64,000 nucleotides of DNA from Nocardioides cavernae (GTDB taxonomy: Bacteria > Actinomycetota > Actinomycetes > Propionibacteriales > Nocardioidaceae): positions 2,914,001 to 2,978,000 of the forward strand of contig NZ_JAFBCA010000001.1 of NCBI RefSeq assembly GCF_016907475.1, written 5' to 3'. The position numbers and the translations under genes are program-made. Under the pieces are notes generated by a model. That model did not search any database, had not been told where the DNA came from, and worked only from the letters and a program-made list of their open reading frames with translations. Below are positions 30,059 to 51,047 of the stretch, piece after piece; the stretch's first letter is position 1; every line of letters begins with the position of its first letter.

Positions 30059-30178
30059 CTACGCCTTCGGCAGACCGCGGTCCTCGACGACCATGCGGGT
30101 GTGGGAGCCGTCCTCGGTGAGCCCCACCTCGATCGGCCCCTCGTCGTCCCGGCTCGGGTCTGACGTCAGGAGCAGGTG
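30059..30178 (-). pseudogene. C-terminal fragment of a START/SRPBCC-like gene
   Basis: The minus strand reads TSDPSRDDEGPIEVGLTEDG then HTRMVVEDRGL before a stop, the usual last strand and helix of an AHSA1/SRPBCC protein. The N-terminal part is absent, replaced by the amidase gene on the other strand. The remainder of the gap 29880-30178 holds nothing else I can identify. Confidence 0.4.
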
Positions 30179-31699: not shown

Positions 31700-31733
31700 C
31701 GCGTAGGACCGTGCAACCGGAAGTCAGCGCAAG

Positions 31734-31750
31734 GGCGGCGGTATGACGCA
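31734..31750 (+). repeat. Directional intergenic repeat, copy A
   Basis: GGCGGCGGTATGACGCA, between the amidase and TolB-like genes. The rest of the gap 31700-31964 shows no gene. Confidence 0.7.
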
Positions 31751-31964
31751 GGTGCTCTTTGGGGGCGTCGCCGCACCGTGACCTGAGGGCGCCTGGACCG
31801 TCGCCGCCGATTCGCCTGTAGCCGCCCTGGCGCCTAGTCCGGGTACTGCTCATCCAGGCAGAGGCTAGGTCGGGGGCGTCAACGTCCTGCCCCTTGGCAC
31901 TGGCACGCAGAGCCTTGGTGGTGCTCTACTGACGTAGGTATTCCTCCTGCTCTGGGTGGTGTCG

Positions 31965-33716
31965 ATGCACATCCGGCTCGTCGCGCTGTGCGTTCTAGCT
32001 GCGACGATGTTGGGCGGCCCGTCAGTCGATGCGCACTTGCCTTCGAGTCTCGTGCCTAGGACCCTGCAGCAGGCGGCGACCGTAGGGATGATCGCCTACG
32101 TCGCTTGGGGCCAAGATGGTGTGCCCAACATCCATACGATCCGCACCGATGGGTCACGGAGCCGTCAGCTCACGACTGGCGGAGGGCTCGGGCCGGTGTG
32201 GTCCCCCGACGGATCACAGCTCGCGTTCTGGTGGAAGAACCGAGTTGGGGTCATGAGCGCGGGCGGAACCACTCGGAGATGGGTGGCGACCGGCTCGAGT
32301 CCCACGTGGTCGCCCGATGGAAGCAGATTGGCCTACAGCTGCGACGAGGACAGCGCCCTGTGCGCTGTCGAGCTCGACACGCATCACGTCACGACGATCG
32401 TGCCACCTACGACTGACGGGATCCACATCGGCGTCGGGCAGAAAGACTGGTCCCCAGACGGGTCCTTGATCGTCTTCACCGGGTGGAGCCCGGAGGGCGA
32501 CGGCTATACGAACTACCGACAGTTGTTCGTCGTCCATCCTGATGGGACCGGCCTGAGGGCTGTCCCCAACACCTTCCCGACGGGGACCGGTCCTGCGTGG
32601 TCGCGCGATGGGTCAGCGCTGCTGTACGCCGAGCGGTACGACGGTCGCGGCGGTGAGGTCAGTGGCGACATCTACTCCATCCGCCCAGATGGGACGGCCC
32701 GAACACCCGTCGTCAAGCAGCCCGGAACGGACGACGACCCCGCTTGGTCTCCGGATGGTCGGGCGATCGCTTTCACGAGTGCAGCCCTTGGGTATCCGCG
32801 CATGCAAGGCATCTGGACAACGTCGCGCGACGGCCGCAACCGGCACCTCGTCGTGCGTGGCGGTGAAGACCCGACCTGGCGACCTGGGTTCGAGGCTGGG
32901 GCCACTGCGCCCCCCGCCGCCCCCGAGTCGTCAGGGAGAAGGATCGCGTACGTCGCTGCGAGCGACGCTGGATTCGATCTGTTCGTCGTTCGTCCTGACG
33001 GGGACCGTTCGCGACGTCTCACCAAGCACGGGCGAGCTCAGAACCCCGAGTGGTCACCGGATCACAAGCGCATCGCCTACTCGACCCTCCACGGCGGGAT
33101 CCGGGTGTTGAGAGTTGATTCCGGCGTCGACCGCAAGGTCGCCAAGTCCTACGGCGTTGCAGGACTCACATGGGCACCGTCCGGACGGCTACTGGCCTGG
33201 GGCGGCTCCGAGGGACTGACCATCCTCAATCTACGCACGGGCCACCGCCGCGTAATTCCGATCGAAGTGGGATGTTGCCCCCGCGATCCGGCCTGGTCCC
33301 CAGACGGCCGAGTCGTGGCGTTCAGTCAAGACTTCTCCACTCAGCGAACCGACATCATGACTATCTCGCCTTCTGGCGAGCGTCTTCGGCGGGTGACGCG
33401 CCTGCGCGGTGCGGAGAGGGAAGCGGAATGGTCACCTGACGGTCGCACCATCGCCTTCACCCACGAGCAGGGTCCGTGGTGGATGCGATCCGCTGAGGTG
33501 CTGACTGTGCGAGGCAACGGGAGTGATCTGCGCGAGCTGGCGGCCACCGATGGCATGTCCTACAGCCCAAGCTGGTCCGACGACGGGCGCCTCGCCTGGT
33601 ACAGCGACGGGCGTCGCGCCTCCCCAGCGCCGCGTGCGGGTCTGTGGAATCTCGACGCGCGCGGTCGGCGCGAACTCCTCGTCCCGAACCGGACCATCGC
33701 GTACGTGGCTTGGTAG
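31965..33716 (+). CDS. Secreted TolB-like beta-propeller protein (WSPDG repeats)
   Basis: 583 aa. A signal peptide (ending near VDA, about residue 24) is followed by repeated PD40-type blades marked by WSPDG (at least eight copies: GPVWSPDG, PTWSPDG, KDWSPDG, DPAWSPDG, PEWSPD and so on) across two propellers joined near residue 300. TolB-like propellers usually bind proteins or carbohydrates and are not enzymes. GGGTGG lies before the ATG; in-frame GTGs upstream are possible. A/T-rich wobble positions are more frequent than in the core genes, suggesting acquisition. Confidence 0.88.
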   Translation: MHIRLVALCVLAATMLGGPSVDAHLPSSLVPRTLQQAATVGMIAYVAWGQDGVPNIHTIRTDGSRSRQLTTGGGLGPVWSPDGSQLAFWWKNRVGVMSAGGTTRRWVATGSSPTWSPDGSRLAYSCDEDSALCAVELDTHHVTTIVPPTTDGIHIGVGQKDWSPDGSLIVFTGWSPEGDGYTNYRQLFVVHPDGTGLRAVPNTFPTGTGPAWSRDGSALLYAERYDGRGGEVSGDIYSIRPDGTARTPVVKQPGTDDDPAWSPDGRAIAFTSAALGYPRMQGIWTTSRDGRNRHLVVRGGEDPTWRPGFEAGATAPPAAPESSGRRIAYVAASDAGFDLFVVRPDGDRSRRLTKHGRAQNPEWSPDHKRIAYSTLHGGIRVLRVDSGVDRKVAKSYGVAGLTWAPSGRLLAWGGSEGLTILNLRTGHRRVIPIEVGCCPRDPAWSPDGRVVAFSQDFSTQRTDIMTISPSGERLRRVTRLRGAEREAEWSPDGRTIAFTHEQGPWWMRSAEVLTVRGNGSDLRELAATDGMSYSPSWSDDGRLAWYSDGRRASPAPRAGLWNLDARGRRELLVPNRTIAYVAW

Positions 33717-34166
33717 CGAGAGGCAGCTTTCGACCATCGGAGGAATTTGTCGGCAGGCACTCGCCCGTTGTTCAAGATCGTGGCGTGTCCGGCACCGTTG
33801 GGGAGTGCACCCTAGGCCCCCGCGCCCGCTGCCATGTGTCAGCACACCCTTAGGCGGCGGTGTGACGCACACTCAGGCCCGTCAGGGTCGCCTGTGGGTG
33901 TTGGCGACGTGCTGGGCGTGACGGCTTGGTCCGGCCCTTCGTGACGGGACGGGACGATGGTCAGTCGAGCGTGATGTGGCCGCGGTAGAAGTACAGGCCG
34001 AGTGGTGACTTCGTCCTCCTTGCGCACTCCCTTGACGAGGTCCCAGGGACGGAGCATTGTGCAGATGTTGCGCGAAGCGCGCGATGTTGCCTCATACGCA
34101 ACCAGCGCTTCGGGTTGGCAGAAGTGACACCAGTGAAAGCGTCACCCATCCGGAAGTGAGCCGACG
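33717..34166. other. Gene-free 450-bp gap
   Basis: Contains repeat copy B. On the minus strand around 33958-34057 two frames carry short protein-like strings (DLVKGVRKEDE, then GLYFYRGHITLD in another frame), which may be a frameshifted gene remnant. Otherwise nothing is recognised; the promoter of the following gene must lie here. Confidence 0.4.
33853..33869 (+). repeat. Directional intergenic repeat, copy B
   Basis: GGCGGCGGTGTGACGCA, preceded by TTA, in the gap between the TolB-like and CehA/McbA-like genes. Confidence 0.7.
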
Positions 34167-37271: not shown

Positions 37272-37631
37272 TCTTGGCTGGGGGATGAGGTCCTCGGCCC
37301 TGCCCGCCGCGAACACGACCGGGCACAGGAGCAGCCACGCTGGTCATCACACGACCGCCGGCAACTGCGTCCCCAGCCGCCGATGCGGAACGAGCCCACA
37401 TCGGCTGCTTGTTTCATTGACGGCAGGACCGAGTCTGGCGAGGCTCGGTCCAGGCGCCCGGGTCGTCGCTCTCACATCGGCTGCCCACGCTGGTCGTGTG
37501 GCTCTCATCTGGCCTGCGCGGTCCCGGGCGTCGCCAGGGCCAGGAGAGGCTCAAGAGGGGTTTGTCCAGCTCGAAGCAGCGTTGCCCTCCCGGCTCGACA
37601 ACCGAACAGGTTTCGAGGATCGGAGGAGCTG
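37272..37631 (+). ncRNA. Candidate IS110 bridge-RNA region
   Basis: The 360 bp before the transposase has no gene. It contains the stem GGACCGAG/CTCGGTCC (37426-37433 with 37444-37451), two copies of CACATCGGCTGC (37397-37408 and 37473-37484) and two of CCACGCTGGTC (37335-37345 and 37485-37495). IS110 elements are known to encode a structured bridge RNA in a non-coding end, and repeated short matches are expected of its loops. No experimental or covariance support here. Confidence 0.4.
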
Positions 37632-38798
37632 ATGAAGGACGAAAGCGGTCGTGTGGTGATCGGGATGGACCCACACAAACGGTCGGTGACGATCGAGGTG
37701 ATGACAGCCGACGACACCGTCCTCGGTGGCGGCCGATACGGCACTGACGAAGCCGGGTTCGCCGACATGGGGCGCTATGTCAGCCAGTTCCCTGATCGTG
37801 TCTGGGCGATCGAAGGCTGCTCCGGCATCGGGCATCACGTCGCAGTTCGGCTGCTCGCCGCGGGCGAGGACGTCGTCGACGTCCCGCCGAAGCTGTCCGC
37901 GCGCACGAGGGTGTTCGCGACCGGTCAGGGACGCAAGACCGACGCCACTGACGCCCACTCGGTCGCGCTGGTCGGGACCCGGATGGCCGGGTTGCGGCCG
38001 GTCGTGAATGACGAGCAGCTCGCGGTCCTACGTCTGCTGGTCGACCGCCGTCGTTCGCTGGGTGAGGAGCACAGCCGCAAGACCTCGCAGCTGCACCAGC
38101 TGCTGCTCGAGCTGATCCCGGGCGGTGCGAAGCGGGACCTGTCCGCGGCTCAGGCGAAGGCGCTGCTGGCCAAGGTCCGTCCACGCGATGTGGTCGGCAA
38201 GACCCGACGGCGCGTGGCCGCGGAGCTGGTTGCGGACCTGGAACGGATCTACGCGCGGAAGAAGGCCGCGAACAAGGAGCTCACCGAGCTGGTCGCGGCC
38301 ACCGGCACCGGACTGCTGGACCTGCACGGCATCGGCCCTACTGGCGCCGCGCGCTTGTTGGTTGAGGTCGGTGACATCACTCGGTTCCCGAACAAGGCGC
38401 ACTTCGCGTCCTGGAACGGCACGGCCCCAATCGACGCATCCTCCGGGGACCACACGCGCCACCGGTTGTCGCGTGCCGGGAACCGTCAGATCAACCGCGT
38501 GCTGCACACCATGGCCCGCGTCCAGCTCCGCAACCCGACGCCCGGGCGCGAGTACTACGACCGCAAGAAGGCCGACGGCAAGGCGCCGATGGAAGCGATG
38601 CGCTGCGTCAAACGCCGGCTGTCCGACATCGTCTTCAAGACCATGCTCGACGACGCCGTCCGATCTTCCCCACCACTCGAAGGGACGGGCCCGGGAGGAC
38701 ACCGGGGCAACGACTCTGACTCCAGCGCGACCGGCTCACAGCCCCACACCGGCTCTTCGGACAAGTCACTTCCCGGACCCGCCCACCACCGATCCTAG
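37632..38798 (+). CDS. IS110-family transposase (DEDD)
   Basis: 388 aa; GGAGGAG precedes the ATG. The RuvC-like catalytic residues are all present: Asp13 (GMDPHK), Glu61 (AIEGCSG), Asp104 and Asp107 (KTDATDAH). The C-terminal Transposase_20 domain has LLDLHGIGPTGAARLL and WNGTAPIDASSGD with the conserved Ser. It appears intact. It may have inserted downstream of the CehA/McbA-like gene. Confidence 0.95.
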   Translation: MKDESGRVVIGMDPHKRSVTIEVMTADDTVLGGGRYGTDEAGFADMGRYVSQFPDRVWAIEGCSGIGHHVAVRLLAAGEDVVDVPPKLSARTRVFATGQGRKTDATDAHSVALVGTRMAGLRPVVNDEQLAVLRLLVDRRRSLGEEHSRKTSQLHQLLLELIPGGAKRDLSAAQAKALLAKVRPRDVVGKTRRRVAAELVADLERIYARKKAANKELTELVAATGTGLLDLHGIGPTGAARLLVEVGDITRFPNKAHFASWNGTAPIDASSGDHTRHRLSRAGNRQINRVLHTMARVQLRNPTPGREYYDRKKADGKAPMEAMRCVKRRLSDIVFKTMLDDAVRSSPPLEGTGPGGHRGNDSDSSATGSQPHTGSSDKSLPGPAHHRS

Positions 38799-38855
38799 AA
38801 CCCCGCTTCCCGCAGCGTCTTGACACAGAGGGGAGGCAGATCAGTGCGTCCGGCA

Positions 38856-38872
38856 CGCGGGGGAAGGACGCT
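38856..38872 (+). repeat. Possible degenerate repeat copy
   Basis: CGCGGGGGAAGGACGCT matches the GGCGGCGGTAAGACGCA repeat at 12 of 17 positions. It lies next to the IS110 right end, just before the DUF480-VOC gene. Confidence 0.3.
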
Positions 38873-38914
38873 GTTCGATCCGCAAGCGTGCCAAGGCAGA
38901 TCTATGGTCGTGAC

Positions 38915-39829
38915 GTGAGCGAACTCCCCGTCCTCGATGCGACTGACCAGCGCATCCTCGGCAGCCTGCTGGAGAAGCAGACGACCGTGCCCACCACCTA
39001 TCCCCTCTCCGCGAACGCACTGGTATCGGCGTGCAACCAGAGGAGCAGCCGCGACCCCGTCACCGACCTCGACCAGCAGACCGTCGAGCGGACCGCGAAG
39101 TCGCTCAAGGATCGCGGGCTGCTGCGGATCGTGTGGTCCGACACCGGGCGCCGGACACTGAAGTACCACCAGATCCTCGACGAGCATCTCGCCCTCGAGC
39201 CCGATGAGCGGGCGCTGCTTACGGTGCTGTTGCTCCGTGGGGCGCAGGCGCCGGGTGAGCTGCGCACCCGCACCGAGCGCTTACACGGGTTCGCCGACCG
39301 GGGCCAGGTCGAGGATTGCCTGCGCCGGATGGCGAGCCGCTCGCAACCGCTGGTGTGCGAACTCGAGCGCCGGTCGGGCCAGCAGGATCCGCGCTGGATC
39401 CACCTCCTGGGAGCCGCGCCGGAGCAGACCTCAGGCGAAGCCAGCCATTCTGGGAGTGCCGACGCGTCGCGCATCCGCGTCACGCAGATCATCGCCGACC
39501 TTCACGTACCCGACCTCCCCGCCTCCAAAAGCTTCTACAGCGACTACCTCGGGTTAGTCGAAGAGGAGTTCAACCTGGGCTGGGTGGCCCGCCACACCTC
39601 GCCGGCTTCCAAGGCGACGCTCCAAGTGATGACCAGCGATGCCACCGCACCCGTGGACCCCGTGGTCTCGGTCATGGTCGACGACGTCGAAGCCGCCTAC
39701 CGCCAAGCACAGGAGCGCGGGTACGAGATCGTGCATCCCCTGACAACCGAGACATGGGGCGTGACTCGCTTCTTCGTCCGCGCTCCCGATGGCAACGTGC
39801 TCAACGTCGTTCAGCAGCACGCAAGCTGA
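38915..39829 (+). CDS. DUF480 (YceH-like) protein fused to a VOC domain
   Basis: 304 aa from a GTG at 38915 (an ATG-like start at 38888 is the alternative). N-terminal DUF480/YceH tandem winged helices: LDATDQRILGSLLEKQ, TYPLSANALVSACNQR and the DRGLLRIVW block, about residues 5-165. The C-terminal 115 residues are a vicinal-oxygen-chelate (glyoxalase/bleomycin-resistance) domain: LHVPDLPASKSFYSDYLGL ... FFVRAPDGNVLNVVQQH. YceH function is unknown; the VOC part suggests small-molecule sensing or detoxification. Confidence 0.85.
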   Translation: MSELPVLDATDQRILGSLLEKQTTVPTTYPLSANALVSACNQRSSRDPVTDLDQQTVERTAKSLKDRGLLRIVWSDTGRRTLKYHQILDEHLALEPDERALLTVLLLRGAQAPGELRTRTERLHGFADRGQVEDCLRRMASRSQPLVCELERRSGQQDPRWIHLLGAAPEQTSGEASHSGSADASRIRVTQIIADLHVPDLPASKSFYSDYLGLVEEEFNLGWVARHTSPASKATLQVMTSDATAPVDPVVSVMVDDVEAAYRQAQERGYEIVHPLTTETWGVTRFFVRAPDGNVLNVVQQHAS

Positions 39830-39887
39830 GGGTCTTGTCATCCGCGGCGTTGGGCGCGCGTTCACCGAGTAGATGGCCCGGCGGCCT

Positions 39888-39904
39888 CGCGGCGGTATGA
39901 CCGT
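39888..39904 (+). repeat. Directional intergenic repeat, copy C
   Basis: CGCGGCGGTATGACCGT, with the 3' part diverged (GACCG for GACGC), between the DUF480-VOC gene and the next gene. Confidence 0.6.
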
Positions 39905-39953
39905 TCTCCCTGGTCGCGACGACGCCGCTTGTCTCCGGGCTAGGGTCACGAGC

Positions 39954-41207
39954 GTGGCCACCTCGTCGTCCGTCGGTTTCGCAGCCCTTGTCGGGGCAAT
40001 CGCCGGAGCTTCGCTGGCCGCGCATCGCGGGATCAGGGCCGTAGCGGGAGCCGCCTTCGCGGGTGCCGCGGGGCTGGGCGTCTCCGAGGCGGCGTCCCGG
40101 GCTCGCCAAGCGGAAGGCGAGATCCCGGCGCTGTGGCAGCGGATCGCGGTGAGCATCGCGCTGGCCGCTCCGCTGGGATGGGCTTCGGAGAAGGTGGCGA
40201 GCGCACGTCCCCGGACGATCGGGCTCTTCACCGGCGCCGTCGTAGGACTGATGGGGATACGACCGCAAAAGGTAGCGATGGGCCCGGCCCTTGGCCTCGC
40301 CGTTGGAGAGCTGCTCGCGCGGCGACAAGCTCCGGGAGCGGCGGTCGCCAGCAGCACCGTGCTCGCCTACCGCAGCCTGTCCGCGCTCGTCTTCCGCGAC
40401 GCCCAGGTCAGTCTGCTCGCTGAACGGGTGCGCGCCGCCGACCTGCCGTTCGTCGTACCGCGACCCGCGCGATCGAGGTACGTCGGCACCGGCTACGTCC
40501 AGAGCCTCGCCGAGGAGCTAGGTGCCCACTACACCGCCAACGCGTCGGACACCGGGATCGTCGCATCGCTCGACGCTCTCGCCGGTCCGGACCTCGATCC
40601 GGGCCAGGTCGACCCGTTGGTGAGGGAGTTCTACGAGCACACCACTCGATTCGCCCTCGATATCTTGCCGCAATGGCGACTGTGGGTCCGGCCCGGCTAC
40701 CTGCTCTACCGCACCCTCGTCGCGCGCCCGCTCGGACAGGCCAGCATGCCCATGAACCAGCGCGAGGCCCAGCGCGGCATCCGCAGCAGAATCGACACCG
40801 TCACCGGGGTCGACGGTGTGGTGTCGGTACGTGGCTGGATCCGCTCGTTCGCCGATGACGACGAGCCGATCATGCTGGGGATCTACACCACCTACACCCA
40901 CGACGACCGCGGCTACGTGAGCGTCGGATTCCCCGTGCCCGAGGGCAGCTTCACCGCCACGCTGCGGCCGCAGGCCCGACCCGACAAAGGCCTGAGGCTG
41001 ACCAGCCGGGTGAACGATGGCCAGGCCGGGCACTACCTCACCTACGTCGACACGACCTCAGACGAGCTCACTGCCCTGGGCGTGCCGGGCTTCGAGGAGC
41101 AGCTCGACGTGTACGTCGACGACGGCGTGCTCCGCGCCGAGCACGCGTTCTGGGTCTTCGGCTTCCCGTTCCTGACGCTGCACTACCGGATCGAACGCAA
41201 ACCCTGA
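39954..41207 (+). CDS. Hypothetical protein with Gly/Ala-rich hydrophobic N-terminus
   Basis: 417 aa from a GTG at 39954; an earlier in-frame ATG at 39873 would run through repeat copy C and is less likely. Residues 1-150 contain several Ala/Gly-rich hydrophobic stretches that may be short membrane helices. The soluble remainder ([55 protein letters not shown]) is well formed and ends [15 protein letters not shown] cannot name the family; function unknown. Confidence 0.75.
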
Positions 41208-41310
41208 GCGTGACATCGCCCTCGACCGACGGCGGCCGATCCTGCCGACGCTAGCCACGGCCGAAAGACTGAATGCTGCGGTTCGGTGCTCGGGACTCAC
41301 TCGCCCTGGA

Positions 41311-41327
41311 CGCGGCGGTATGACCGC
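41311..41327 (+). repeat. Directional intergenic repeat, copy D
   Basis: CGCGGCGGTATGACCGC in the 236-bp gap 41208-41443; shares the GACCG variant with copy C. Confidence 0.6.
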
Positions 41328-41443
41328 CTACGCAGATCCATCTCCGCCTACGCAACTAGGTCGTTGCCTCCCCTCGGGCACGTCGAGATGGATGTACCCC
41401 TCGAACGGCAGAAGCGCTATCGAGGCGGCTCGGCGCCGGTCGC

Positions 41444-41722
41444 TCAGCTGGAGCGCAACGCAGCGACGCTCTTCACGAGACGACGCAGCGGCGTATCGCG
41501 CTGCGCTGTGAGGCGGCCACCATCCTGCGTCAGCCCGAAATGGGACAGCAGGTCCTGGCGCCCCTCTCGCTCGGCCATCAGCAAGATCGCGTCCCGGTCG
41601 TAGGAGTCGGCGAGTTCGGCGGCGAGGACTAAGTCGTCGGCCGCGACAGCATCGTTGATGGACTGGACGTAGTTGGCGTAGAGGGCGTTGAGCTCGTCGG
41701 TAAGGCGGGTCTGGTTGGTCAT
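41444..41722 (-). CDS. Small helical hypothetical protein
   Basis: 92 aa; ATG at 41722 with AAGGGG upstream. Entirely helical, with heptad-like ELNALYANYVQSINDAVAA and ELADSYDRDAILLMAERE. It has no signal peptide or Cys. Its opening resembles a small conserved hypothetical seen in Nocardioides-type genomes, but no function is known. Sole gene of its repeat-bounded unit. Confidence 0.7.
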   Translation of the reverse strand: MTNQTRLTDELNALYANYVQSINDAVAADDLVLAAELADSYDRDAILLMAEREGRQDLLSHFGLTQDGGRLTAQRDTPLRRLVKSVAALRSS

Positions 41723-42167
41723 GGACAACCCCTTGGAGTCGCGATGTGGGCTAGCTGTGACCTCCAGTCTCGGGCGCCAGTTGGATCGTTCCAATAGGAC
41801 GGCGCCATGATCTTGGGCACGCGTGACCCGGTCGACCCCAGAGGGCGCGATGATCGAGATCCCGGATTGTCAACCGCGACGGCGTCGCGCAGCCTGCGAC
41901 GTCCGCGCCTTTCAAGAGCTCAGCAGTTCGCGTTAGGCGCCGGGCGTGTGCGCCGCTTGCCCACGGCCATCGTTGTTGAAGCACGCGAAGTGACTGAGTC
42001 CCCGTCCAGTTCGACAAGTAACCGCTCACGCAAATTCGGATGTCCCCGACAGGCGGCGGTAAGACGCACTTCGCGTGGTCGAGCTGGATGTCGCACGCTT
42101 GCGAGACCGGGGGTCTGTGGGCACTCTGAGGTGAGGTGGACAAGCACCGCGTACCTGTCGGAGGGGC
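41723..42167. other. Gene-free 445-bp gap
   Basis: Contains repeat copy E near its middle and a GTTAGGC heptamer (41934-41940). I see no coding region with convincing composition. The promoters of the divergent flanking genes (41722 minus, 42168 plus) must lie here. Confidence 0.5.
42052..42068 (+). repeat. Directional intergenic repeat, copy E
   Basis: GGCGGCGGTAAGACGCA, the consensus form. Preceded by GTCCCCGACA, which is identical before copy F. Confidence 0.75.
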
Positions 42168-43484
42168 ATGCGCGCAGTTGGCTCATACGTCACGCTGGTA
42201 GCGGTGGTCGTCTTGTTCGCTGGGTGCAGCGAGGAAAGCCGCCAGCGCAGTGAGTCACGCTCCCCGGGCCAGCCCAGTGGGAGATCTGCCCCCGAGAGCA
42301 CGGACAGCGAGAGTGCTAACGAGAGTCCATCGGCTGGTTCGGTGACTCCGGCCACGAAGGGACCTATCTCGCCGAAGCGACGAGAGAAGCTCGAGGGGTT
42401 CCTCGACCGGGTTCAGTTCCTCGACCACGCGGGTCCGGACCTCGAGCTTCGCGAGATCCAGTACACCTCCCGGACCGACGCCGTGGCGATGCTCCTCGAC
42501 CAACGCGAGGGGAGCGAAGGCACGGTCATCGCCACCACCGACGACAACTGGGCCCACGCCACTCGGATGTACATCAGCGACGCTCTCGCCTACTTGGTGT
42601 CGTACAGCCCGCTAGGCGGTGGGGCGGTGGCCGTCAGGGCCCAGCAGCAGGACCCCTTCATCAACTACCCGGCGTTCGTCTTCTACCCGAACGGCAAGAC
42701 GAAGCCTCTGCGGGTCTTGGAGCCGCAGGCACGAAGAGGAGGAGACGTGCTCCTCGACCTCGACCGCTTTGGCAGCGTCCTCTACGGTCTCGGCGAGGTC
42801 CAGACACGGCAGTTGTGGGCTGCCGACGTCGATGCTGCGGAAATCTATCCGGTCGAGGGCACCCGGTTCGGTGAGGTGTGGCAGCACGTAGCGGGTCGCC
42901 GCGGAGCGATCATGGGCGTCCAGGGCTTCAAGCGTCGCGGTCAGCAGTGGCGCTTCGAGACCAGTAGCGACCGCGGACGCACATGGACCACTACCGAAGC
43001 CGACCTGCCGGGAGGCAGGTCCACCGGCGGCCCAGGATTCGGGTACGGCCAAGCGGGGGTCGCCGTGGGGCCCGGACACCTGCAGGCGACGGTGTCGACG
43101 ACGTGGTTGCAGGACCTGCCGTCGTACGTCAACGCGTTGTGGCAGACAGATGACGAGCAACGATTCCACCAGGTCCCGCTGCCCTGGGACCGACCCTACT
43201 TCGGCGGCATCGCGTACGCCGACGATGGAGCTCTGCTCTTCGGCCGACTCTTCGTTTCCGACATCCCGTGCACCAAACCGATCTGCGGGCCGCCCGGCGA
43301 GATCTGGCGCTACGCCCCGGGGAGCCGCGTGCCCGAGCCCCTAGCCGGCGCCCCTAGCCTGCTCGGTCCGTACTGGTCCGGGGGGATCGACACTTCTGGC
43401 GGTGTCATCATCGCCAGGACTGGAGTGCGAACGATCTCCGTCTCCTCCGACGGATATCAGTGGACGCCGGTCACACCCGGGTAG
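42168..43484 (+). CDS. Lipoprotein with BNR/Asp-box beta-propeller character
   Basis: 438 aa. Signal peptide with lipobox LFAGC (Cys about residue 20), then a Ser/Glu-rich linker to about residue 60. The rest is beta-rich with a sialidase-type Asp-box, SSDRGRTWTT, and a related SSDGYQWTP at the end, so it is probably a surface-anchored propeller. No catalytic residues are recognised. The genes on both sides face toward it or away without an operon link. Confidence 0.82.
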   Translation: MRAVGSYVTLVAVVVLFAGCSEESRQRSESRSPGQPSGRSAPESTDSESANESPSAGSVTPATKGPISPKRREKLEGFLDRVQFLDHAGPDLELREIQYTSRTDAVAMLLDQREGSEGTVIATTDDNWAHATRMYISDALAYLVSYSPLGGGAVAVRAQQQDPFINYPAFVFYPNGKTKPLRVLEPQARRGGDVLLDLDRFGSVLYGLGEVQTRQLWAADVDAAEIYPVEGTRFGEVWQHVAGRRGAIMGVQGFKRRGQQWRFETSSDRGRTWTTTEADLPGGRSTGGPGFGYGQAGVAVGPGHLQATVSTTWLQDLPSYVNALWQTDDEQRFHQVPLPWDRPYFGGIAYADDGALLFGRLFVSDIPCTKPICGPPGEIWRYAPGSRVPEPLAGAPSLLGPYWSGGIDTSGGVIIARTGVRTISVSSDGYQWTPVTPG

Positions 43485-43623
43485 GTCGGCCGCGAGCGCT
43501 TTGTGTAAACCGGGCTACTGCGGAGGCGAATGGTCGAGGTCATGCCGGAAAAGCCAGCCCCGCGTCATCATGCCGAGACGCCACGCTCATGTGCGGATCT
43601 GGAAGTCGGCAGCGTCCCCGACA

Positions 43624-43640
43624 GGCGGCGAAAAGACGCA
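43624..43640 (+). repeat. Directional intergenic repeat, copy F
   Basis: GGCGGCGAAAAGACGCA in the 180-bp gap 43485-43664. The preceding GTCCCCGACA matches copy E exactly. Confidence 0.7.
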
Positions 43641-43664
43641 CCGTCGAGCTCCGCGGCCGCGGCT

Positions 43665-44498
43665 TCATCGCCACGGCCGTTGACGGGGCTGTAGTTCGAG
43701 GGAGTCCGCCATGGTCAGTAGCTCGTCGACGACGGAGGGCGGCGCGTGCCGCGTCCACCCGGCGAGCACGAGGAGAGGCTCGCCGTCGAGGTCGATCAGC
43801 CAGATATCATAGGTGCCGCCCAGGCCGAGGTTGCTGAGCGGTCCCTTGGCGCCCTGGATGGTCTCCAAGGGGCAGTCGGGCCCACGGCGGGTCTCCTTCA
43901 GCCTCAGGTGGTAGGCAGGGTGACCGAAGCGGGTCGCGGCGTCGGGGCCGTAGGTCACGCCGACGCGAGGCAGTCTGGTGAGATGGGGCAGCAGTCGGTC
44001 TACGCCCGCGCCCGTGAGGTCGAGCACTTCGCAGTTGGGTGCGGCCACCCAGTCGAGCTCCGTGACGTACAACCCGGCGTACCACTTCGAGCGCTCCAAT
44101 GCCTTCGTGTTGTCGGCGCCGACCGGACCGATGCCTTCGAATCTGTCTGGCCCGTACGACGCATTCCAACCTTTAGAAACCCGCACCCACGCGGCCGGGA
44201 GAGCGATGTCGTGGTAGGGGGTGAGCTCGTAGGTTCCCTCATCCAGGGTGACGTTCTCAGGACCGGGGTACGGCTTCGCGGCGGAATGGGTGTCCTCAGC
44301 CGGCTGTGGTTCGTCGCTGTCCCGGCCCGTCGCTGCAAGAAGGCCGGTCACCACCAGCGCGCAGGCTGCCGCGGCACCCACCACAGCGTGCCTCCGGTTC
44401 CGTCGGGCACGGCCGGCTGCCTCGATCCGCTCAAACTCGGGCAGCACGATCGCCCGCTCCGCCTCTTCGCGGAATGCATCCAGCAATCGTTCAGACAT
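43665..44498 (-). CDS. Putative anti-sigma factor with one membrane helix
   Basis: 277 aa. A short cytoplasmic N terminus (about 38 residues, LLDAFREEAERAIVLPEF) is followed by a single membrane helix (VVGAAAACALVVTGLLAA, about 39-57) and an extracytoplasmic domain with two conserved-looking Cys. The start overlaps the end of the sigma-factor gene by 8 bp, the usual sigma/anti-sigma arrangement. The N-terminal part is short for a classical zinc anti-sigma domain and no HxxxCxxC is seen. Confidence 0.78.
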   Translation of the reverse strand: MSERLLDAFREEAERAIVLPEFERIEAAGRARRNRRHAVVGAAAACALVVTGLLAATGRDSDEPQPAEDTHSAAKPYPGPENVTLDEGTYELTPYHDIALPAAWVRVSKGWNASYGPDRFEGIGPVGADNTKALERSKWYAGLYVTELDWVAAPNCEVLDLTGAGVDRLLPHLTRLPRVGVTYGPDAATRFGHPAYHLRLKETRRGPDCPLETIQGAKGPLSNLGLGGTYDIWLIDLDGEPLLVLAGWTRHAPPSVVDELLTMADSLELQPRQRPWR

Positions 44499-45027
44499 GG
44501 TCGACCCCTCCTTCGGCAGGCGTCAAGCTGGTCGCGAGCGCTTCGCGTCCCCGGCTCAGTCGCGACTTGACCGTCCCTTCTGGGACGCCAAGCTCTGCGG
44601 CTATGGCGCCGACCGGTAGGTCGGCCAGGTAATGGAGCGCTACCACTTGGCGTTGTTGCTCCGGCAAGGCTCGTAGGGCGTTGATGATCTCGACGTGCTC
44701 TTCGAGGGCGGCTGGGTCGCGCGGTCGAGTCATCCGATCCTGGGCCCGGCGACCGTTGCGCTTCTTGCGCCAGCGGCTGCGGTGGGCGTTGACCGCCGTG
44801 GTGCGCAACCATGCCTCTTTGTTGTCGACGCGGAGGAAGCGTCGGCTGGTCGCGACCGCCTTCACAAACGCCTCCTGCACGAGGTCCTCGGCCTCGTCGT
44901 AGTCGCCGGTGATGGCGTAGAGCTGGACGACCAGCTTGCGGTAGCTCGCGTCAAAGACGTCGCGGAGGGCGACGCCGCAATCTTCGGGGCCCGACACCAG
45001 CCCGAAGGTGATGGAGTCCTCGTCCAT
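44491..45027 (-). CDS. ECF sigma factor (SigE-like)
   Basis: 178 aa from an ATG with AGGAGG 6 bases upstream. Region 2: FDASYRKLVVQLYAITGDYD then AEDLVQEAFVKAV; region 4: LPEQQRQVVALHYLADLPV then AAELGVPEGTVKSRLSRG. It directs RNA polymerase to stress or surface promoters and is probably held inactive by the coupled membrane protein downstream. Confidence 0.93.
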   Translation of the reverse strand: MDEDSITFGLVSGPEDCGVALRDVFDASYRKLVVQLYAITGDYDEAEDLVQEAFVKAVATSRRFLRVDNKEAWLRTTAVNAHRSRWRKKRNGRRAQDRMTRPRDPAALEEHVEIINALRALPEQQRQVVALHYLADLPVGAIAAELGVPEGTVKSRLSRGREALATSLTPAEGGVDHV

Positions 45028-45402
45028 GCTGGCCTCCTGGAGGGGATGCCTGTGACGACTCCCGAGCAGCCTCTTCCGTTCCGCCGAACTCTGATTGCTT
45101 CTCTCAGGGTGCTCTTCTGCGGGGACCGGTACGGCGTGGTCTAGGCAACCGGCCTCTCGAAGGCGCACCGCGATCGAAATCCGGGATCTCCGGGAACCTG
45201 CAGATCCAGTCGAGAGTCGTCACACGTACACACTCCGCACCATGTCCGGAGATCACGGCAAGGACCAGCGCGCGGACTGCGACGCCCGGTCCACGCAGGC
45301 CCTGAGCGTGGCCAGTCACGTCACCGCTCTGGCACCGCCATGCCACTGCACTGTCTGGCAACGCTCCGGCCAGCGGTGCCCCCTGCCCGAAAGGCGCAAA
45401 TC
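45028..45402. other. Gene-free 375-bp divergent promoter region
   Basis: Lies between the sigma-factor gene (minus) and the repeat-peptide gene (plus). No directional repeat copy and no convincing ORF. A GGAAC (minus strand) followed by CGTC about 20 bases on is reminiscent of an ECF promoter, but the spacing is too long to accept. Confidence 0.4.
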
Positions 45403-45801
45403 ATGAGCACCTCATTCACCTTCCGTCGCACCGTCGCCGGTGCCATCACGATCACGGCCACCTTCTTTGCCGCGACCGCTTGCGGAAGCGCTACAGATGT
45501 TTCCCAGTCCATCACCCGAACCAGCAAGGAGACCCCGACGAACAAGGCCTATCCGGCCGACGGCCGGGAGAACCGCAACAGCGCGCGCAACGCTTCGACG
45601 CACCGCCAGTACCCGGCAGACGGCCGGGAGAACCGCAACGCCGTCAACGGTTCGACGGGTCGCCAGTACCCGGCTGACGGCCGGGAGAACCGCAACGCCG
45701 TCAACGGTTCGACGGGTCGCCAGTACCCGGCTGACGGCCGGGAGAACCGCAACAGCGGGGCACCGTTACCGTTGCCTCGCGGGCGCGACACGTGCTGTTA
45801 G
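45403..45801 (+). CDS. Small lipoprotein-like repeat peptide (YPADGRENRN repeats)
   Basis: 132 aa; GAAAGG before the ATG. A hydrophobic N terminus ends ATACGS, a weak lipobox with Cys about residue 27. Then come four tandem repeats built on YPADGRENRN plus a linker (NAVNGSTGRQ), with a short tail ending in DTCC. The repeats are hydrophilic and probably disordered. The paired C-terminal Cys could link to a surface. Not recognised. Divergent from the sigma factor and perhaps one of its targets. Confidence 0.75.
   Translation: MSTSFTFRRTVAGAITITATFFAATACGSATDVSQSITRTSKETPTNKAYPADGRENRNSARNASTHRQYPADGRENRNAVNGSTGRQYPADGRENRNAVNGSTGRQYPADGRENRNSGAPLPLPRGRDTCC
45604..45759 (+). repeat. 57-bp coding tandem repeat
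   Basis: Units at 45604-45660 and 45661-45717 differ at one base; a third partial unit starts at 45718, and a diverged 60-bp unit precedes them. All are in frame inside the small lipoprotein gene, so copy number could vary by slippage. Confidence 0.85.
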
Positions 45802-45903
45802 CCAACTCCCCATCGGTTTAGTTGAAGCCCACCAACCGAAAGAAGTCCCGCGATTGACGCTCGCTTGGACGCACGTCATCGCCATTGAAAGCTGACGCCG
45901 TCA

Positions 45904-45920
45904 GGCGGCGGTAAGACGCA
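45904..45920 (+). repeat. Directional intergenic repeat, copy G
   Basis: GGCGGCGGTAAGACGCA, consensus form, in the 280-bp gap 45802-46081. A partial inverted match (CTTACGCCGCCGCG, about 46033-46046) lies 130 bp downstream. Confidence 0.75.
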
Positions 45921-46081
45921 GATCCGTTCGTGGGTTGAAGCCGAGATGGCACACGACACCCCTCGAGCGAACGATGCGCCGTGCGTGCCCGGAACACATC
46001 GGTCCGAGAAGGTCACTCCCGCGACAGCGGATCTTACGCCGCCGCGCGCATCTCGGCCGGCCCTAGGTTGCCTAGCCGGAA

Positions 46082-48805
46082 TTAGTCGTACTTGGTGGCA
46101 TCCAGAAGCGGCTTCGGCTTGTCGACCCGCTTCCAGACCTTGATGGTCTCTTCCCAGGTCGGGACGATCCGCAGGGTGGCGGCCTCCTTCACCAACTCGA
46201 AGTAGAAGGCAATGAGTGCCGCCTCGTCGCCTGCCAGACGCGCCACCAGGTGTGCTCGGGAGGTCACATCGACCGACAGCAGCAGTTGTAGCAGCTGCAG
46301 GCGTGTGGCTTCGTCCTGTTCGCCGGTCTCGTCCAGTTGGCCGAGCAGGTCGTAGAGCAGCGCAGCCTCGACCCATTGCTGGGCCACCGACGGATGCACG
46401 CTGGCGGTGCTCGCCAGCTTCTCGCGTCCGACGCCGACTAGATCGCTGAGGTGCAGCAGGCCGTAGCCCTTCAACGCCTTGGCATACGGTTCGAACGGCT
46501 CCAGCTCGAGGTATGTCGTCAATGGCCCCGGCGCCAGGATTTCCTTGAACTCCTTGATCAGGTCGTCATGTGCGCGTTTGCCTCCCTCGTTGCGGAGGAT
46601 GAAGACCGCCATGGACGGGTCCTGGGGTGCCCACTCGGCGAAGCGCGGAGCTGTCGCGGCGACGCGCAAGTCGCGCACGGCGAGCTTCCACTCGTCCGGG
46701 GCGTTTGGTACGGCTGCGTAGAAGCACGCTCGTCCGTAGTAGTCGTTGCGCGTTTGTGGTTTGAGGTCGTCCCTGTTCAGGTCGAGGTTGCTCGCCGCAG
46801 ACTTCACCGCGTCGACGTGCTGGCCGAACTCGGGTGCGTGGGCTGCAAGGTCGCGCAGCAGGAAGGCGGTGGGACGTACTGATTCCCCGACCAGGGCTGC
46901 CAGCGACGGGGTCGGGTTGGCCTCGAGGGCGATGAGACGTTCCCTCAATCCGAGGGCAGCTTTGGCGCTCTTTCTCCACGCGTCGGCTCCTCCCTCCGCA
47001 TCACCGGCGATCGCGCGGTCCAGGCGGACGTTCATCCACGCGATCGAGCGGTTGTACAGCAGGCGCAACTTTGCCGCCTCGTAGCCTCGCCGAACCGGGT
47101 CCGGCTTCGTCGGAGACAGGTCGGCGTCGAAGTCATCCCACAAGCGGTTCAGAGCCTCTGCATACCGCGAACGGCCGTCCGGGTCTGAGTCGTCGATGGC
47201 GTTCACCGCGGCCATCCGGGGAAGGAGGTAGCGAGGGCTTGCGTCGATTGCTGCGTGCACCAGGGCGGACTTGCGGCTGTCGCTCACCCCGGGTCGTCGC
47301 GAGATAGCGTGCAGCGCCAGGGCTTGCCAGCGCGTAGCGCCGCACAGACCCTCCTGCAGGTCCTCGTGAGGCCCTGACAGCACCAGCAGTGTGTGCGCCG
47401 CGGCAATCGTGAGCATCTCGTCGAGGTTGCTCAATTCCGATGCGTCAGCCGCGTCGCCGTTGGCAGTTGCGCTGTCCGTTGCATCAGCGTCAGCCGACGG
47501 TAGATCCGCGGCGCGCACTACCAACGAGCCGGCTGGGACGGCGATGCGGTTGCGAGTGATGTCAGCTACCAGGGTGGCGTCGTCGGGCAAAGACACTGTC
47601 ACCCGCCACGGAGCTGACGGGCGGATAACCTTCAAGAGATTGAACAGCGCTGCCGCGACTGCCCCGCTCGGCACTGCGGTCAGTGCGTCCTCGGGCAGCG
47701 AGGTGACATCGCTCTTACCTATGTGCCGGATGTCGTGCGGGTTCTCCGACCCGAGCTCTTGGAGCCGAGCCAACATCATCTGCGAGCGAGCGGCGTTGTC
47801 TGACCCCGAGTCGCCCCGTACTAGCACCTCGATGGCTAGGCCTGTACCGCGAGCACAGGCCACTAGAACAGCACCAGCGATCGCAGCCCATCCACCAGCC
47901 ACCAGCGCCACGTCGACATAGACGGCCGGAATCGCCAGACCCGTGGCCACCGCCCCAGCGACCGCCAACACCAACGCCGGCCGTTCCCACTCCTGGTGCC
48001 GTTGCCGCCACGGCGCCAGTAGCAGCACCAGAACGAGAGTAGTTAGCGCTGCGGCGAACGGCCACCACTTGTTGTCGTCGACATCGACGTGCGCGGCGAC
48101 CGCGGCGCTGCACCCCGCAGCGACAATCAGCGCGAGGCCGACCGTCCACCATGACAGACGCAACCAGTCGGCTGGCGCCTTCGCGGCGGGACGCACCACG
48201 ACCCCGGCTGACAGTCGCGCCAGCACGAGCAACACCAGGATGATGCCCAAGGCCGCGAGGAGCACGTCCTTGAGGGGATCCAGGTTGGCCTTGGTCCATG
48301 CCGACCAACTCTTCTGGAGCTTCTGCTCCCAGCCCGCCTTGCTGGCGTCCTTCGCGGCGGCGGCCGTGGCGGCCGCATCCTCCTTCTGCAACAACCTGGC
48401 CAGACCGACAGCGGCGCAGGCACGATCTGGCGGGCTGCCGCTCGCGATGACCTGCTCGTAAAGCCGCTTGGCGGCTGGGTATGCCGTGGAATCGCCAGAA
48501 TCGACTATCGCGTCTGCCGCGGCAGTCAAGTCCGTCGAACCGTTGCAGGTCGCCGAGATGGGGCGCTTGCTTGGAGTGGACTCGGAAGCCGTGGTGTCAG
48601 CCCCGTCGGGGTTGTCGGATAAGTCGGACGCGAGCCCCAGGACGAAAGCTGTGACGACTACGGCCAGCGCCAACGTCAGGCCCTTGTTCGAGCGGGCCAG
48701 GAGCAAGACCTTCGCGAGCCAGACTCCAGCAGCCATGAGCACCCCCGTACCGGGTGCGTCCCGGAATGTCGGACCCGGCACCGACATATTGGCACGAGTA
48801 TCCAT
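46082..48805 (-). CDS. Large membrane protein with helical repeat C-terminus
   Basis: About 907 aa (start uncertain: ATGs at 48805, 48787 or 48907, none with a clear Shine-Dalgarno). The first 330 residues carry six or seven membrane helices (such as LTLALAVVVTAFVLGLA, LLAALGIILVLLVLA, ALTTLVLVLLLAPW), interrupted by a helical segment. The soluble C-terminal two thirds is helical with TPR-like character (WRKSAKAALGLRERLIALEANP, GRACFYAAVPNAPDEWKLAV). It ends KPKPLLDATKYD. No catalytic motif is seen. Function unknown; a scaffold or sensor is plausible. Confidence 0.78.
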   Translation of the reverse strand: MDTRANMSVPGPTFRDAPGTGVLMAAGVWLAKVLLLARSNKGLTLALAVVVTAFVLGLASDLSDNPDGADTTASESTPSKRPISATCNGSTDLTAAADAIVDSGDSTAYPAAKRLYEQVIASGSPPDRACAAVGLARLLQKEDAAATAAAAKDASKAGWEQKLQKSWSAWTKANLDPLKDVLLAALGIILVLLVLARLSAGVVVRPAAKAPADWLRLSWWTVGLALIVAAGCSAAVAAHVDVDDNKWWPFAAALTTLVLVLLLAPWRQRHQEWERPALVLAVAGAVATGLAIPAVYVDVALVAGGWAAIAGAVLVACARGTGLAIEVLVRGDSGSDNAARSQMMLARLQELGSENPHDIRHIGKSDVTSLPEDALTAVPSGAVAAALFNLLKVIRPSAPWRVTVSLPDDATLVADITRNRIAVPAGSLVVRAADLPSADADATDSATANGDAADASELSNLDEMLTIAAAHTLLVLSGPHEDLQEGLCGATRWQALALHAISRRPGVSDSRKSALVHAAIDASPRYLLPRMAAVNAIDDSDPDGRSRYAEALNRLWDDFDADLSPTKPDPVRRGYEAAKLRLLYNRSIAWMNVRLDRAIAGDAEGGADAWRKSAKAALGLRERLIALEANPTPSLAALVGESVRPTAFLLRDLAAHAPEFGQHVDAVKSAASNLDLNRDDLKPQTRNDYYGRACFYAAVPNAPDEWKLAVRDLRVAATAPRFAEWAPQDPSMAVFILRNEGGKRAHDDLIKEFKEILAPGPLTTYLELEPFEPYAKALKGYGLLHLSDLVGVGREKLASTASVHPSVAQQWVEAALLYDLLGQLDETGEQDEATRLQLLQLLLSVDVTSRAHLVARLAGDEAALIAFYFELVKEAATLRIVPTWEETIKVWKRVDKPKPLLDATKYD

Positions 48806-49222
48806 GTGCCGACCAGAGCCGACTTCGGGGCCGATACAACGCCCGATAAGACTCGACCGTCGCCACGACAATGAGGTCTCGGGCGGTTCGTGAGCTTGCC
48901 GTTCCAAGAACTAGTGCACGTGTGCGAACGCCTACCGAACATTCCAAACTGCTGAGCGATGCCGTGCCTGCCGGCTTTGCACGGATTTCAGGTCCGGAGC
49001 AGGAGAGACCAGCACGCGGCGGTAAGACGCAGGTCGCCACGCATCGGACAGCGACACCAAGGCGGGCGCGCTCTACCGGTCTCGTCAGATGAAGACTTCG
49101 CCATCGAACGCAGAGGGCGAAGTAGTTTCGGACGGGCTGGCCGTCCTGGCGCTTGACGGCCGAAGTGCGCGCGAGCATCGTTAGGACTTCCAATCGTCAA
49201 GGGATTGACGGAGGAAGTCGGC
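48806..49222. other. Gene-free 417-bp gap
   Basis: Contains repeat copy H and the divergent start regions of the two flanking genes. No other coding or RNA feature is recognised. Confidence 0.5.
49015..49031 (+). repeat. Directional intergenic repeat, copy H
   Basis: CGCGGCGGTAAGACGCA, followed by GGTCG as in copy I. Confidence 0.75.
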
Positions 49223-49909
49223 ATGGACGATGAAGAATTCCGAGAAGGGCTCAACTCGCTCGACAGACTCGCGTTGACCGAATACCACGACGGACTGGCC
49301 GTTGTCTCGCAGGATCCCGACCCCCGTCACGCCGCGGTGCGTCTTGGTCGGCTCGTTGGCGTAGAGCTCAAGGAGCCTTTCGCTAAGAGCCGACCGCTGG
49401 CGTCCCCATCTGAACGAACGGCTGCGTACAGAGGCTGGGACCTTGTTGCGAGCAGGGAGGACTTCGACCGCGCAGACCGCGTCGCCACTTGGCAGTACCA
49501 GGCGCTCGGTGCGATCAAGGCCGAACTGGCGGCTGACGACCCACGTGTCCGCGATTGGACTACCTACGACTTCGCCTTCTGGGCGCAGAACGAGGAGGGC
49601 TTCTTCGGCTTCTTTGCTCGAGCGGTCCGCCGCTACATTTGCGGAGATCCTGTTGTTCGAGCCAAGGTCGAGGAGGCTACGACCACCTCGAGGAAGAGCG
49701 GTATCGCTGTGGCAGACCTGAGTCCCGAGGTCGTTGTTGCCAGCGGCGGTGCAGCTCTGGGCACTTACCTGGTAGCGACTGTGCCGTTTCTCGGCTTCAT
49801 GGGGGTCCCCGTGATCGTTGCGCTGGTTCTGATCCTCTATCGCCTTGGAGTAGAGGGTTTCTGCGACTGGTCCAACAGCCTCCGGACCGACGAGGACGAA
49901 AAGCACTGA
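49223..49909 (+). CDS. Hypothetical protein with C-terminal membrane hairpin
   Basis: 228 aa; GGAGGAAG precedes the ATG. A soluble mixed helical N-terminal part (about 1-165, with FDRADRVATWQYQALGAIKA and FAFWAQNEEGFFGFF) is followed by a hydrophobic stretch that can form one or two helices (about 170-212). The C-terminus is charged. Codon use is visibly less GC-biased than in the core genes. Not recognised. Confidence 0.72.
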   Translation: MDDEEFREGLNSLDRLALTEYHDGLAVVSQDPDPRHAAVRLGRLVGVELKEPFAKSRPLASPSERTAAYRGWDLVASREDFDRADRVATWQYQALGAIKAELAADDPRVRDWTTYDFAFWAQNEEGFFGFFARAVRRYICGDPVVRAKVEEATTTSRKSGIAVADLSPEVVVASGGAALGTYLVATVPFLGFMGVPVIVALVLILYRLGVEGFCDWSNSLRTDEDEKH

Positions 49910-50043
49910 AGCCGATTGAATGGCTGCTCAAGGTGCGGCGGCAGCGGCTTGGCACAGAACAGAGCTGCTACGCGCGCGTGTTCAATGTGGGTGGCCCCCA
50001 GGGCGCCGCCGAGCAGGTTGCGGGCCGCTGGGAGTTGTCCGCT

Positions 50044-50060
50044 CGCGGCGAAAAGACGCA
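50044..50060 (+). repeat. Directional intergenic repeat, copy I
   Basis: CGCGGCGAAAAGACGCA, followed by GGTCG as in copy H; shares AAAA with copy F. Gap 49910-50098 holds no gene. Confidence 0.7.
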
Positions 50061-50098
50061 GGTCGTCGTCGACCGAATTGCGGTGAGCGGAAGGTTTG

Positions 50099-50950
50099 TC
50101 ACGCTGCGTCGACGGTGGCGACGCCGTGCGGCGTCACGACGACATTGCGTTCGTTGCGGGCGAGCCTGATGAGCACGACAAGTGCTGAGATGGCGACGGC
50201 AACGGTGAGAAGCAGTGTGAGTACCTGGACGAGGTCTCTGCCGTAATTGCCTTCGAGGAAGGTGGAGAAGTCCCAGAGCCCATGGGCGATCATGGCCGGG
50301 ATGATGTATCCGTAGTTGCGTCGCCACAGATACAGAACCGCTCCGGACAGGCCAGCGAGCACGATCTGACTCAGCCCCGCTGCTCCCGTGCCCATGAACA
50401 CGTTCGGAAGATGGAACAGGCCGAAGGCGATCGCCGTCCACAGCGCCGCGGTTCCCTCGGGGCGGCCATGGGTGCGCATGCAGCGTAGAAAGATCCCCCG
50501 GAAGAGGATCTCCTCAGCGAAGCCCACCAGAACGGACGTGCAGGCGATGGCGAGCAGGAGATCGCCCGGGACGTCGCCCCATTCGAGTCCGGCGAGCCGG
50601 ATCACAACGGCGGCGACGAACATGATCAAGATCGCGCGCATCAGCGTCGACATTGCAAGACGCCCCGGGTCGCGCCACATGATGTCCCAGCGCGACCACA
50701 CCACGAAAGCGGCCAGCAGGACCGAGCAGACAGCAAGCGAGAGAACAGCGGTGCGGTAAGCGTTGTCAGCAGTGTCGAAAAAGTCCTGGTACTCGATCCC
50801 GCTGGACAACTGGATGCCGAAGCAGATCGCCATGTAGACGATGACGATCCCGACCCCAAGGCCGATGGACGGCTGGACGCGGTAGCGCGTGGGCGCGTTC
50901 CGCTCTGTGGATTCGGCGCTCACGGCAATCTCGCTTTCGCTGGGTGACAT
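50099..50950 (-). CDS. CPBP (CAAX-like) intramembrane metalloprotease
   Basis: 283 aa; start at 50950. About seven membrane helices. The family motifs are visible: EEILFRG (Glu146-Glu147 with Arg151), FHLPN (His180) and the later AHGLWDF. These intramembrane proteases are linked to protein processing or bacteriocin self-immunity in bacteria; substrate unknown. It stands alone between repeats I and J. Confidence 0.9.
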   Translation of the reverse strand: MSPSESEIAVSAESTERNAPTRYRVQPSIGLGVGIVIVYMAICFGIQLSSGIEYQDFFDTADNAYRTAVLSLAVCSVLLAAFVVWSRWDIMWRDPGRLAMSTLMRAILIMFVAAVVIRLAGLEWGDVPGDLLLAIACTSVLVGFAEEILFRGIFLRCMRTHGRPEGTAALWTAIAFGLFHLPNVFMGTGAAGLSQIVLAGLSGAVLYLWRRNYGYIIPAMIAHGLWDFSTFLEGNYGRDLVQVLTLLLTVAVAISALVVLIRLARNERNVVVTPHGVATVDAA

Positions 50951-51030
50951 GCAGGATCGCAGCAAATCGCCAGCCATCGATAGCCCATCCGCTCAGCGGC
51001 AGATCCGGTCGTTCGCCCACGGCGCCGACA

Positions 51031-51047
51031 GGCGGCGGTTCCGGCTA
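51031..51047 (+). repeat. Directional intergenic repeat, copy J (half)
   Basis: GGCGGCGGTT matches the left half, and the preceding CCGACA matches copies E and F, but the AAGACGCA half is replaced. It is the last copy, before the SLOG-like gene. Confidence 0.5.

Follow-up and report, generated by a model that had tools for sequence, protein, structure and literature searches.

One-way sites between the genes of the window

We analyzed a 64,000-nt stretch of the Nocardioides cavernae chromosome (here called the window), in which copies of a motif of ~26 bp, with the core W|S-GCGGCG-RWWW-GACGC-R, lie among genes of varied kinds (Table 1). Searching with a 17-mer and allowing up to three mismatches, we found seven copies in the window, all on the (+) strand (expected number, 0.42; none of 100 shuffles reached seven). 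A position weight matrix (PWM) trained on the window array and related loci (cut-off, 11.5) matched nine sites, and a tenth (site 5) was recognized by eye. These results agree with an earlier sequence-only reading of this DNA, which had placed repeat copies at these positions, every one of them on the (+) strand and none to the left of 31.7 kb; the PWM detected no further sites in the window. The half copy reported at 51031 indeed has the left half of the motif followed by GCGGCGG and no right half. Retention of the left half and the hexamer alone is what is expected for the edge of an array, and this half site is likely the right end of the array. The copy at 38856, on the other hand, had been called degenerate and in fact scores well. 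The claim that sites lie only between genes was nearly right, the exception being 42052, which is inside a doubtful 130-aa open reading frame (ORF); with all loci taken together, a rough ORF caller placed 39 of 201 sites within an ORF. The GC content is lower in the array (0.62 to 0.71) than outside (0.67 to 0.76), as had been proposed.

Table 1 Sites, genes, and elements of the window array (window positions) and loci of a helicase-like protein in other genomes (positions within each locus)
Feature	Position	Strand	Evidence or remark
Amidase gene (PF01425), probable cassette	30178..31729	+	Directly upstream of site 1; no window site upstream of gene
Site 1	31734..31750	+	PWM 25.2
WD40-like/PD40 beta-propeller protein, cassette gene	31956..33716	+	Pfam
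Site 2	33853..33869	+	PWM 28.5
Cassette gene, 1034 aa	34167..37271	+	Pfam, weak carboxypeptidase-regulatory-like match, sub-cut-off
IS110-family insertion sequence	37398..38842	+	Pfam; within array, outside cassette system
Site 3	38856..38872	+	PWM 23.9
DUF480 + glyoxalase domain, cassette gene	38888..39829	+	Pfam
Site 4, GACC variant	39888..39904	+	PWM 14.0
Cassette gene, 422 aa	39939..41207	+	Pfam scan, no match
Site 5, GACC variant	41311..41327	+	By eye, CGCGGCGGTATGACCGC; under PWM cut-off
Probable cassette gene, 116 aa	41444..41794	−	No Pfam match
Site 6	42052..42068	+	PWM 35.8
Cassette gene, 438 aa	42168..43484	+	Pfam scan, no match
Site 7	43624..43640	+	PWM 30.7
Cassette gene, 277 aa	43665..44498	−	Adjoins sigma-factor gene; no Pfam match
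ECF-type sigma-70 factor, cassette gene	44491..45168	−	Pfam
Possible cassette gene, 153 aa	45340..45801	+	No Pfam match
Site 8	45904..45920	+	PWM 32.2
Cassette gene, 941 aa	46082..48907	−	No Pfam match
Site 9	49015..49031	+	PWM 29.9
Site 10	50044..50060	+	PWM 27.9
CAAX protease (Rce1-like), cassette gene	50099..50977	−	Pfam
Half site	51031..51038	+	Sequence: left half + GCGGCGG, no right half
Helicase-like protein, L043	2610-4343
Helicase-like protein, L130	12313-14046
Helicase-like protein, L137	8708-10441
Helicase-like protein, L192	3737-5464
Helicase-like protein, L197	924-2657

The 3′ end of the IS110 element is 14 bp before site 3, and a second copy on the same chromosome (1.766 Mb; 99.9 to 100% identical) likewise sits between two sites. 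We considered IS110 as the mover of the units and rejected it, as only one of 16 Nocardioides loci with relatives of the element, L071, had sites in the 4.5 kb of the locus, with the caveat that both copies of this genome sit among sites. None of 10 window proteins matched a known defense protein in PADLOC at 1e-5.

Across 48 loci, all 151 pairs of neighboring sites no more than 6 kb apart share one orientation, the median unit length is 1,466 bp, and the gene strand is mixed (180 genes with the site and 128 against it). The cargo in or beside annotated arrays is varied, comprising beta-propeller, amidase, DUF480/glyoxalase, ECF sigma factor, CAAX protease, and carotenoid oxygenase genes as well as dehydrogenases, RibD-like proteins, hydrolases, a GDSL lipase, and several unknown proteins. 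A helicase-like protein (577 aa in L043, ResIII/SNF2-related) was seen 0.1 to 4.6 kb from a site in five genomes, at 83 to 90% DNA identity.

Distribution of the motif

A gene of the window has its closest named relatives in Nocardioides. On the host chromosome (4.85 Mb, a single contig), the motif occurs in seven regions. Apart from the window, a second array holds 15 sites at 305 to 331 kb, all in one orientation. Five further places, at about 0.06, 0.76, 1.77, 4.29, and 4.69 Mb, have a single site or a smaller group. The motif is clustered and not evenly spread; the sequence-only reading had named equal frequency over the whole chromosome as an observation that would tell against a cassette array. 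One Mrr-type endonuclease was recognized by Pfam in the second array (the PADLOC scan covered window proteins).

The exact pattern was counted 535 times in 215 Nocardioides genomes, 167 of which have it, compared with 18 times for the reversed pattern. Genomes of some other genera in the same family are also rich in the motif (G306, G386, G388, and G395). In other families of this order, its frequency is close to background. In viral contigs, 49 stretches had one motif match each and no arrays, with one contig represented twice, on opposite strands.

Units shared between genomes

Units of the window recur elsewhere, alone or in part together. The unit at 42044-43628 is 94% identical, site to site, in G129; the left end of the G129 copy of 42052-43624 is at a site, but its right end is at no scored site, which speaks against the cassette reading. 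The gene of the preceding unit is also common to both genomes in the same order (window DNA 41367-41966, 88%), with ~0.6 kb of other DNA separating the two window-like units, and G129 is a mixed case, partly block-like. In comparison, the unit at 38856-39888 is common to L134, L140, and L204 (92 to 95% identity to the window) without its neighbors, and the homology begins at or near a site. The gene at 39939..41207 has an 86% DNA match in G059 that is confined to that unit. Two loci, L043 (98% identity) and L045 (91%), have the amidase gene with unrelated flanks and with sites on its left. Its status as a cassette is less sure, as the gene is also found in L044, L046, and L051, and in L051, which has no sites nearby, 190 bp of the left flank in the window are matched at 84%. 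A carotenoid oxygenase unit occurs at 4.69 Mb in this genome (L035), directly before the amidase in L044, and ~5 kb after the amidase in L043.

We examined 51 segments shared between different loci, excluding recombinase modules and including some pairs of loci from one genome. Thirteen segments started at a site (null mean, 0.85; maximum, 4 in 500 trials) and 10 ended at one (null mean, 1.27; maximum, 5), one of the ten being an IS110 copy. However, 38 of the 51 started away from any site, which counts against the cassette reading. The right flank (51 to 64 kb) matched no relative at an E-value of 1e-100, with two candidates scored per genome. As units and the amidase recur at 91 to 98% identity in other genomes, with homology edges on sites far more often than by chance, these data support the mobile gene cassettes proposed from the sequence alone.

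Position of the crossover

Ten pairs of sites followed by homologous units agree at positions 11 to 17 (0.90 to 1.00), and mostly beyond as well, and differ at position 1 (0.10, compared with 0.37 at random); these pairs, which represent five cassette families only, also agree at −8 and −7 (0.70 and 0.90). Conversely, 49 pairs preceded by homologous DNA, many of them related recombinase modules, agree at position 1 (0.82) but no better than random pairs at positions 8 to 11 (0.35 to 0.53). This pattern places the exchange between position 1 and about position 9, in or at the edge of GCGGCG (positions 2 to 7). Among 122 sites the hexamer hardly varies, partly by selection, as the matrix that chose the sites contains it.

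A tyrosine recombinase linked to the sites

In G129, the gene of a tyrosine recombinase of 304 aa stands 106 bp away from a site. This recombinase has matches at an E-value of ≤1e-30 in 70 of the 215 Nocardioides genomes, and by our own count 39 of 215 hold copies or pieces of one family at no less than 68% identity, several of them broken. In 20 of 30 recombinase loci (30 genomes), a site lies 92 to 153 bp upstream of the start and points away from the gene. No site was scored at this place in the remaining 10, and in six of these a degraded one can be made out by eye. Longer flanks were read for 12 recombinase loci; 10 of these also have sites 3′ of the recombinase, 0.4 to 8 kb beyond its stop codon, and site orientation around the 12 loci stands at 55 to 0. 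Genomes with the recombinase carry more sites than those without (means of 3.9 and 2.2; Mann-Whitney P = 0.0007). Clustering of the proteins of 48 loci, by which a recombinase had also been sought, returned no abundant one and a single pair (L126 and L203).

Among the pairs of recombinase loci listed, one edge of homology is at about the stop codon. Pairs that are alike over the longest distance have their upstream edge within the site, at about +111 to +130, whereas in the others homology stops at +53 to +84 or close to the start codon. L258, L262, and L268 have ~0.9 to 1 kb of additional common DNA, which ends at a site in L258 and L262. The recombinase copies of L282, L283, and L284 are broken, near residues 80 to 90 (L282 and L284) or 245 (L283); the DNA upstream of them is almost the same in all three and includes a site ~140 bp from the start. 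Upstream of the recombinase in L257-L286, a conserved GACGCTA precedes the first site by some 20 to 45 bp; read on the other strand as TAGCGT, it could possibly be the −10 box of the recombinase promoter.

Outside Nocardioidaceae but within the same class, family members are 83 to 88% identical and partly fragments, and sites surround the recombinase in other families at L310, L311, and L314 (the last at 61%). A protein database holds 2,937 relatives at an E-value of ≤1e-20; the 120 matches listed are 84 to 96% identical, with names including Nocardioides, Monashia, and Nocardioidaceae. In a tree, the 17 family members included group together (support, 96/99) on a branch separate from XerC and XerD. 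Among 12 distant relatives (39 to 50% identity), 10 have no site in the 11 to 20 kb read and two have one. A rough k-mer look for arrays of their own around distant recombinases revealed no clear repeated site. The gene at G030:C2:1134828-1135694 and those of L315-L326 belong to a wide group of ~300-aa recombinases with 39 to 50% identity to the array enzyme that are mostly site-less. The residues that we take to be catalytic, following the motif R, K, H-x-x-R, H, Y, are well conserved among 24 members (R156, K183, and R250 invariant; H247, H273, and Y282 at least 90%). The recombinase aligns to XerD over residues 32 to 284 and to IntI4 only over residues 229 to 284; its structure model is poor (mean pLDDT, 41.8). 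No viral contig contained the recombinase.

The sequence-only reading had suggested a search for a recombinase that co-occurs with the motif, and one does stand beside the sites in other genomes, but this genome has no match to it. Of its PF00589 proteins, two were interpreted as XerC and XerD, another is an integrase of phage type, and the other two are fragments; no serine resolvase (PF00239) was detected in G000. The presence of arrays without the array recombinase in G000 and G025 is evidence against the explanation that we favor below.

Interpretation

The sites, their orientation, the sharing of units, the crossover position, and the linkage between recombinase and site are best explained if the interval is a mobile gene cassette array, belonging to an integron-like platform in which a dedicated tyrosine recombinase joins sites (probability, roughly 0.84). 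A unit would extend from the right half of one core site of ~26 bp through the left half of the next. The recombinase of ~304 aa would join two sites by strand exchange within GCGGCG, the putative overlap region, and units may be released as circles and inserted elsewhere at a site, the orientation being always the same; recombination itself, the action of this enzyme on the sites, and the circular intermediates are inferred. In other genomes, the recombinase gene stands divergently about 105 bp from a site, like intI beside attI. As this genome has no copy of it, the window array would be a CALIN-like remnant, best read as recombinase-less and either supplied with units at an earlier time or open to a recombinase that arrives from elsewhere.

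The gene-cassette platform known from bacteria is the integron, and the present one is best read as working like an integron without being one by type of recombinase or site. We think it fairly probable that it is a second, independently evolved cassette capture system, with a simple tyrosine recombinase related to phage integrases, short double-stranded sites, a fixed 6-bp overlap, and a recombinase able to lie in the array and travel with it, i.e., an actinobacterial counterpart of the integron across several families. If it is indeed a separate platform, cassette capture would have evolved on more than one occasion, and access would be gained to a stock of accessory genes and to a recombinase that has short, orientation-specific sites; the need for a folded attC site in cassette traffic becomes testable. 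PMC9024848 describes integrons as rare in Actinobacteria for reasons that are "unclear" and reports Actinobacteria without complete integrons according to IntegronFinder 2.0. We found no description of this cassette system in the literature covered, bioRxiv and most subscription journals being outside its scope.

A divergent classical integron with IntI and attC sites, of which the array would be an ordinary CALIN, is highly improbable despite a similar layout, i.e., tandem one-way cassettes with one site each, a divergent tyrosine recombinase beside a site, and arrays without a recombinase (CALINs); even an attI-like site adjoining the recombinase gene is found in 20 of 30 loci, this genome not among them. 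However, attC sites are folded imperfect palindromes with R′ and R″ boxes, and no attC-like inverted repeat was detected around 122 sites, where conservation is limited to about −9 to +20 and ungapped complementarity is 7.07 upstream (shuffled, 7.04) and 7.06 downstream (shuffled, 7.07). Moreover, the recombinase scores 45.8 bits against TIGR02249, far under the cut-off of 265, which was exceeded in none of 15 array genomes, the 14 control genomes likewise being without a positive. The earlier reading had noted that the GTT of classical integron core sites is not conserved and that no IntI is visible. Unlike integrons, the array system also has genes on both strands and often sites on both sides of the recombinase gene. 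It is very unlikely that host XerC and XerD move the units, as with dif modules (pdif), which are known from Acinetobacter plasmids. In pdif, too, short sites presumably flank single genes, and G025 has arrays with only two PF00589 recombinases, read as XerC and XerD, but the array motif does not look like dif, its sites have one orientation only, and a different recombinase is linked to them, scoring 99.2 bits against NCBIfam XerC (cut-off, 335) and 83.3 bits against XerD (cut-off, 330). No native dif was found in 400 kb (2.2 to 2.6 Mb) with a dif consensus, a result that is neutral toward this explanation.

If no recombination were involved, the motif could have a regulatory or structural role (e.g., as a terminator or binding site) and happen to lie where the DNA is variable. 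This would suit a short and mostly intergenic motif, yet neighboring sites never differ in strand where gene strand is mixed, homology breaks at the motif, and a recombinase is linked to it, so that this explanation is extremely unlikely. We give hardly any credence to an origin from phages or integrative islands that accumulated in tandem at a single att site and later decayed, although the near relatives of the recombinase include annotated integrases of Arthrobacter phages (e.g., Judy, Seahorse, and Gusanita), which are simple-type tyrosine integrases of the same length and about 50% identity. The median unit is 1.5 kb long, and those annotated carry varied accessory rather than phage genes; the three phage integrase regions (6.9 kb each) have no such site above background, and the viral contigs with single motif matches (49 stretches) have no recombinase.

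As a separate observation, three Arthrobacter phages (L330, L331, and L332) encode two tyrosine integrases about 1 to 1.2 kb apart, one of which is related to the array recombinase.
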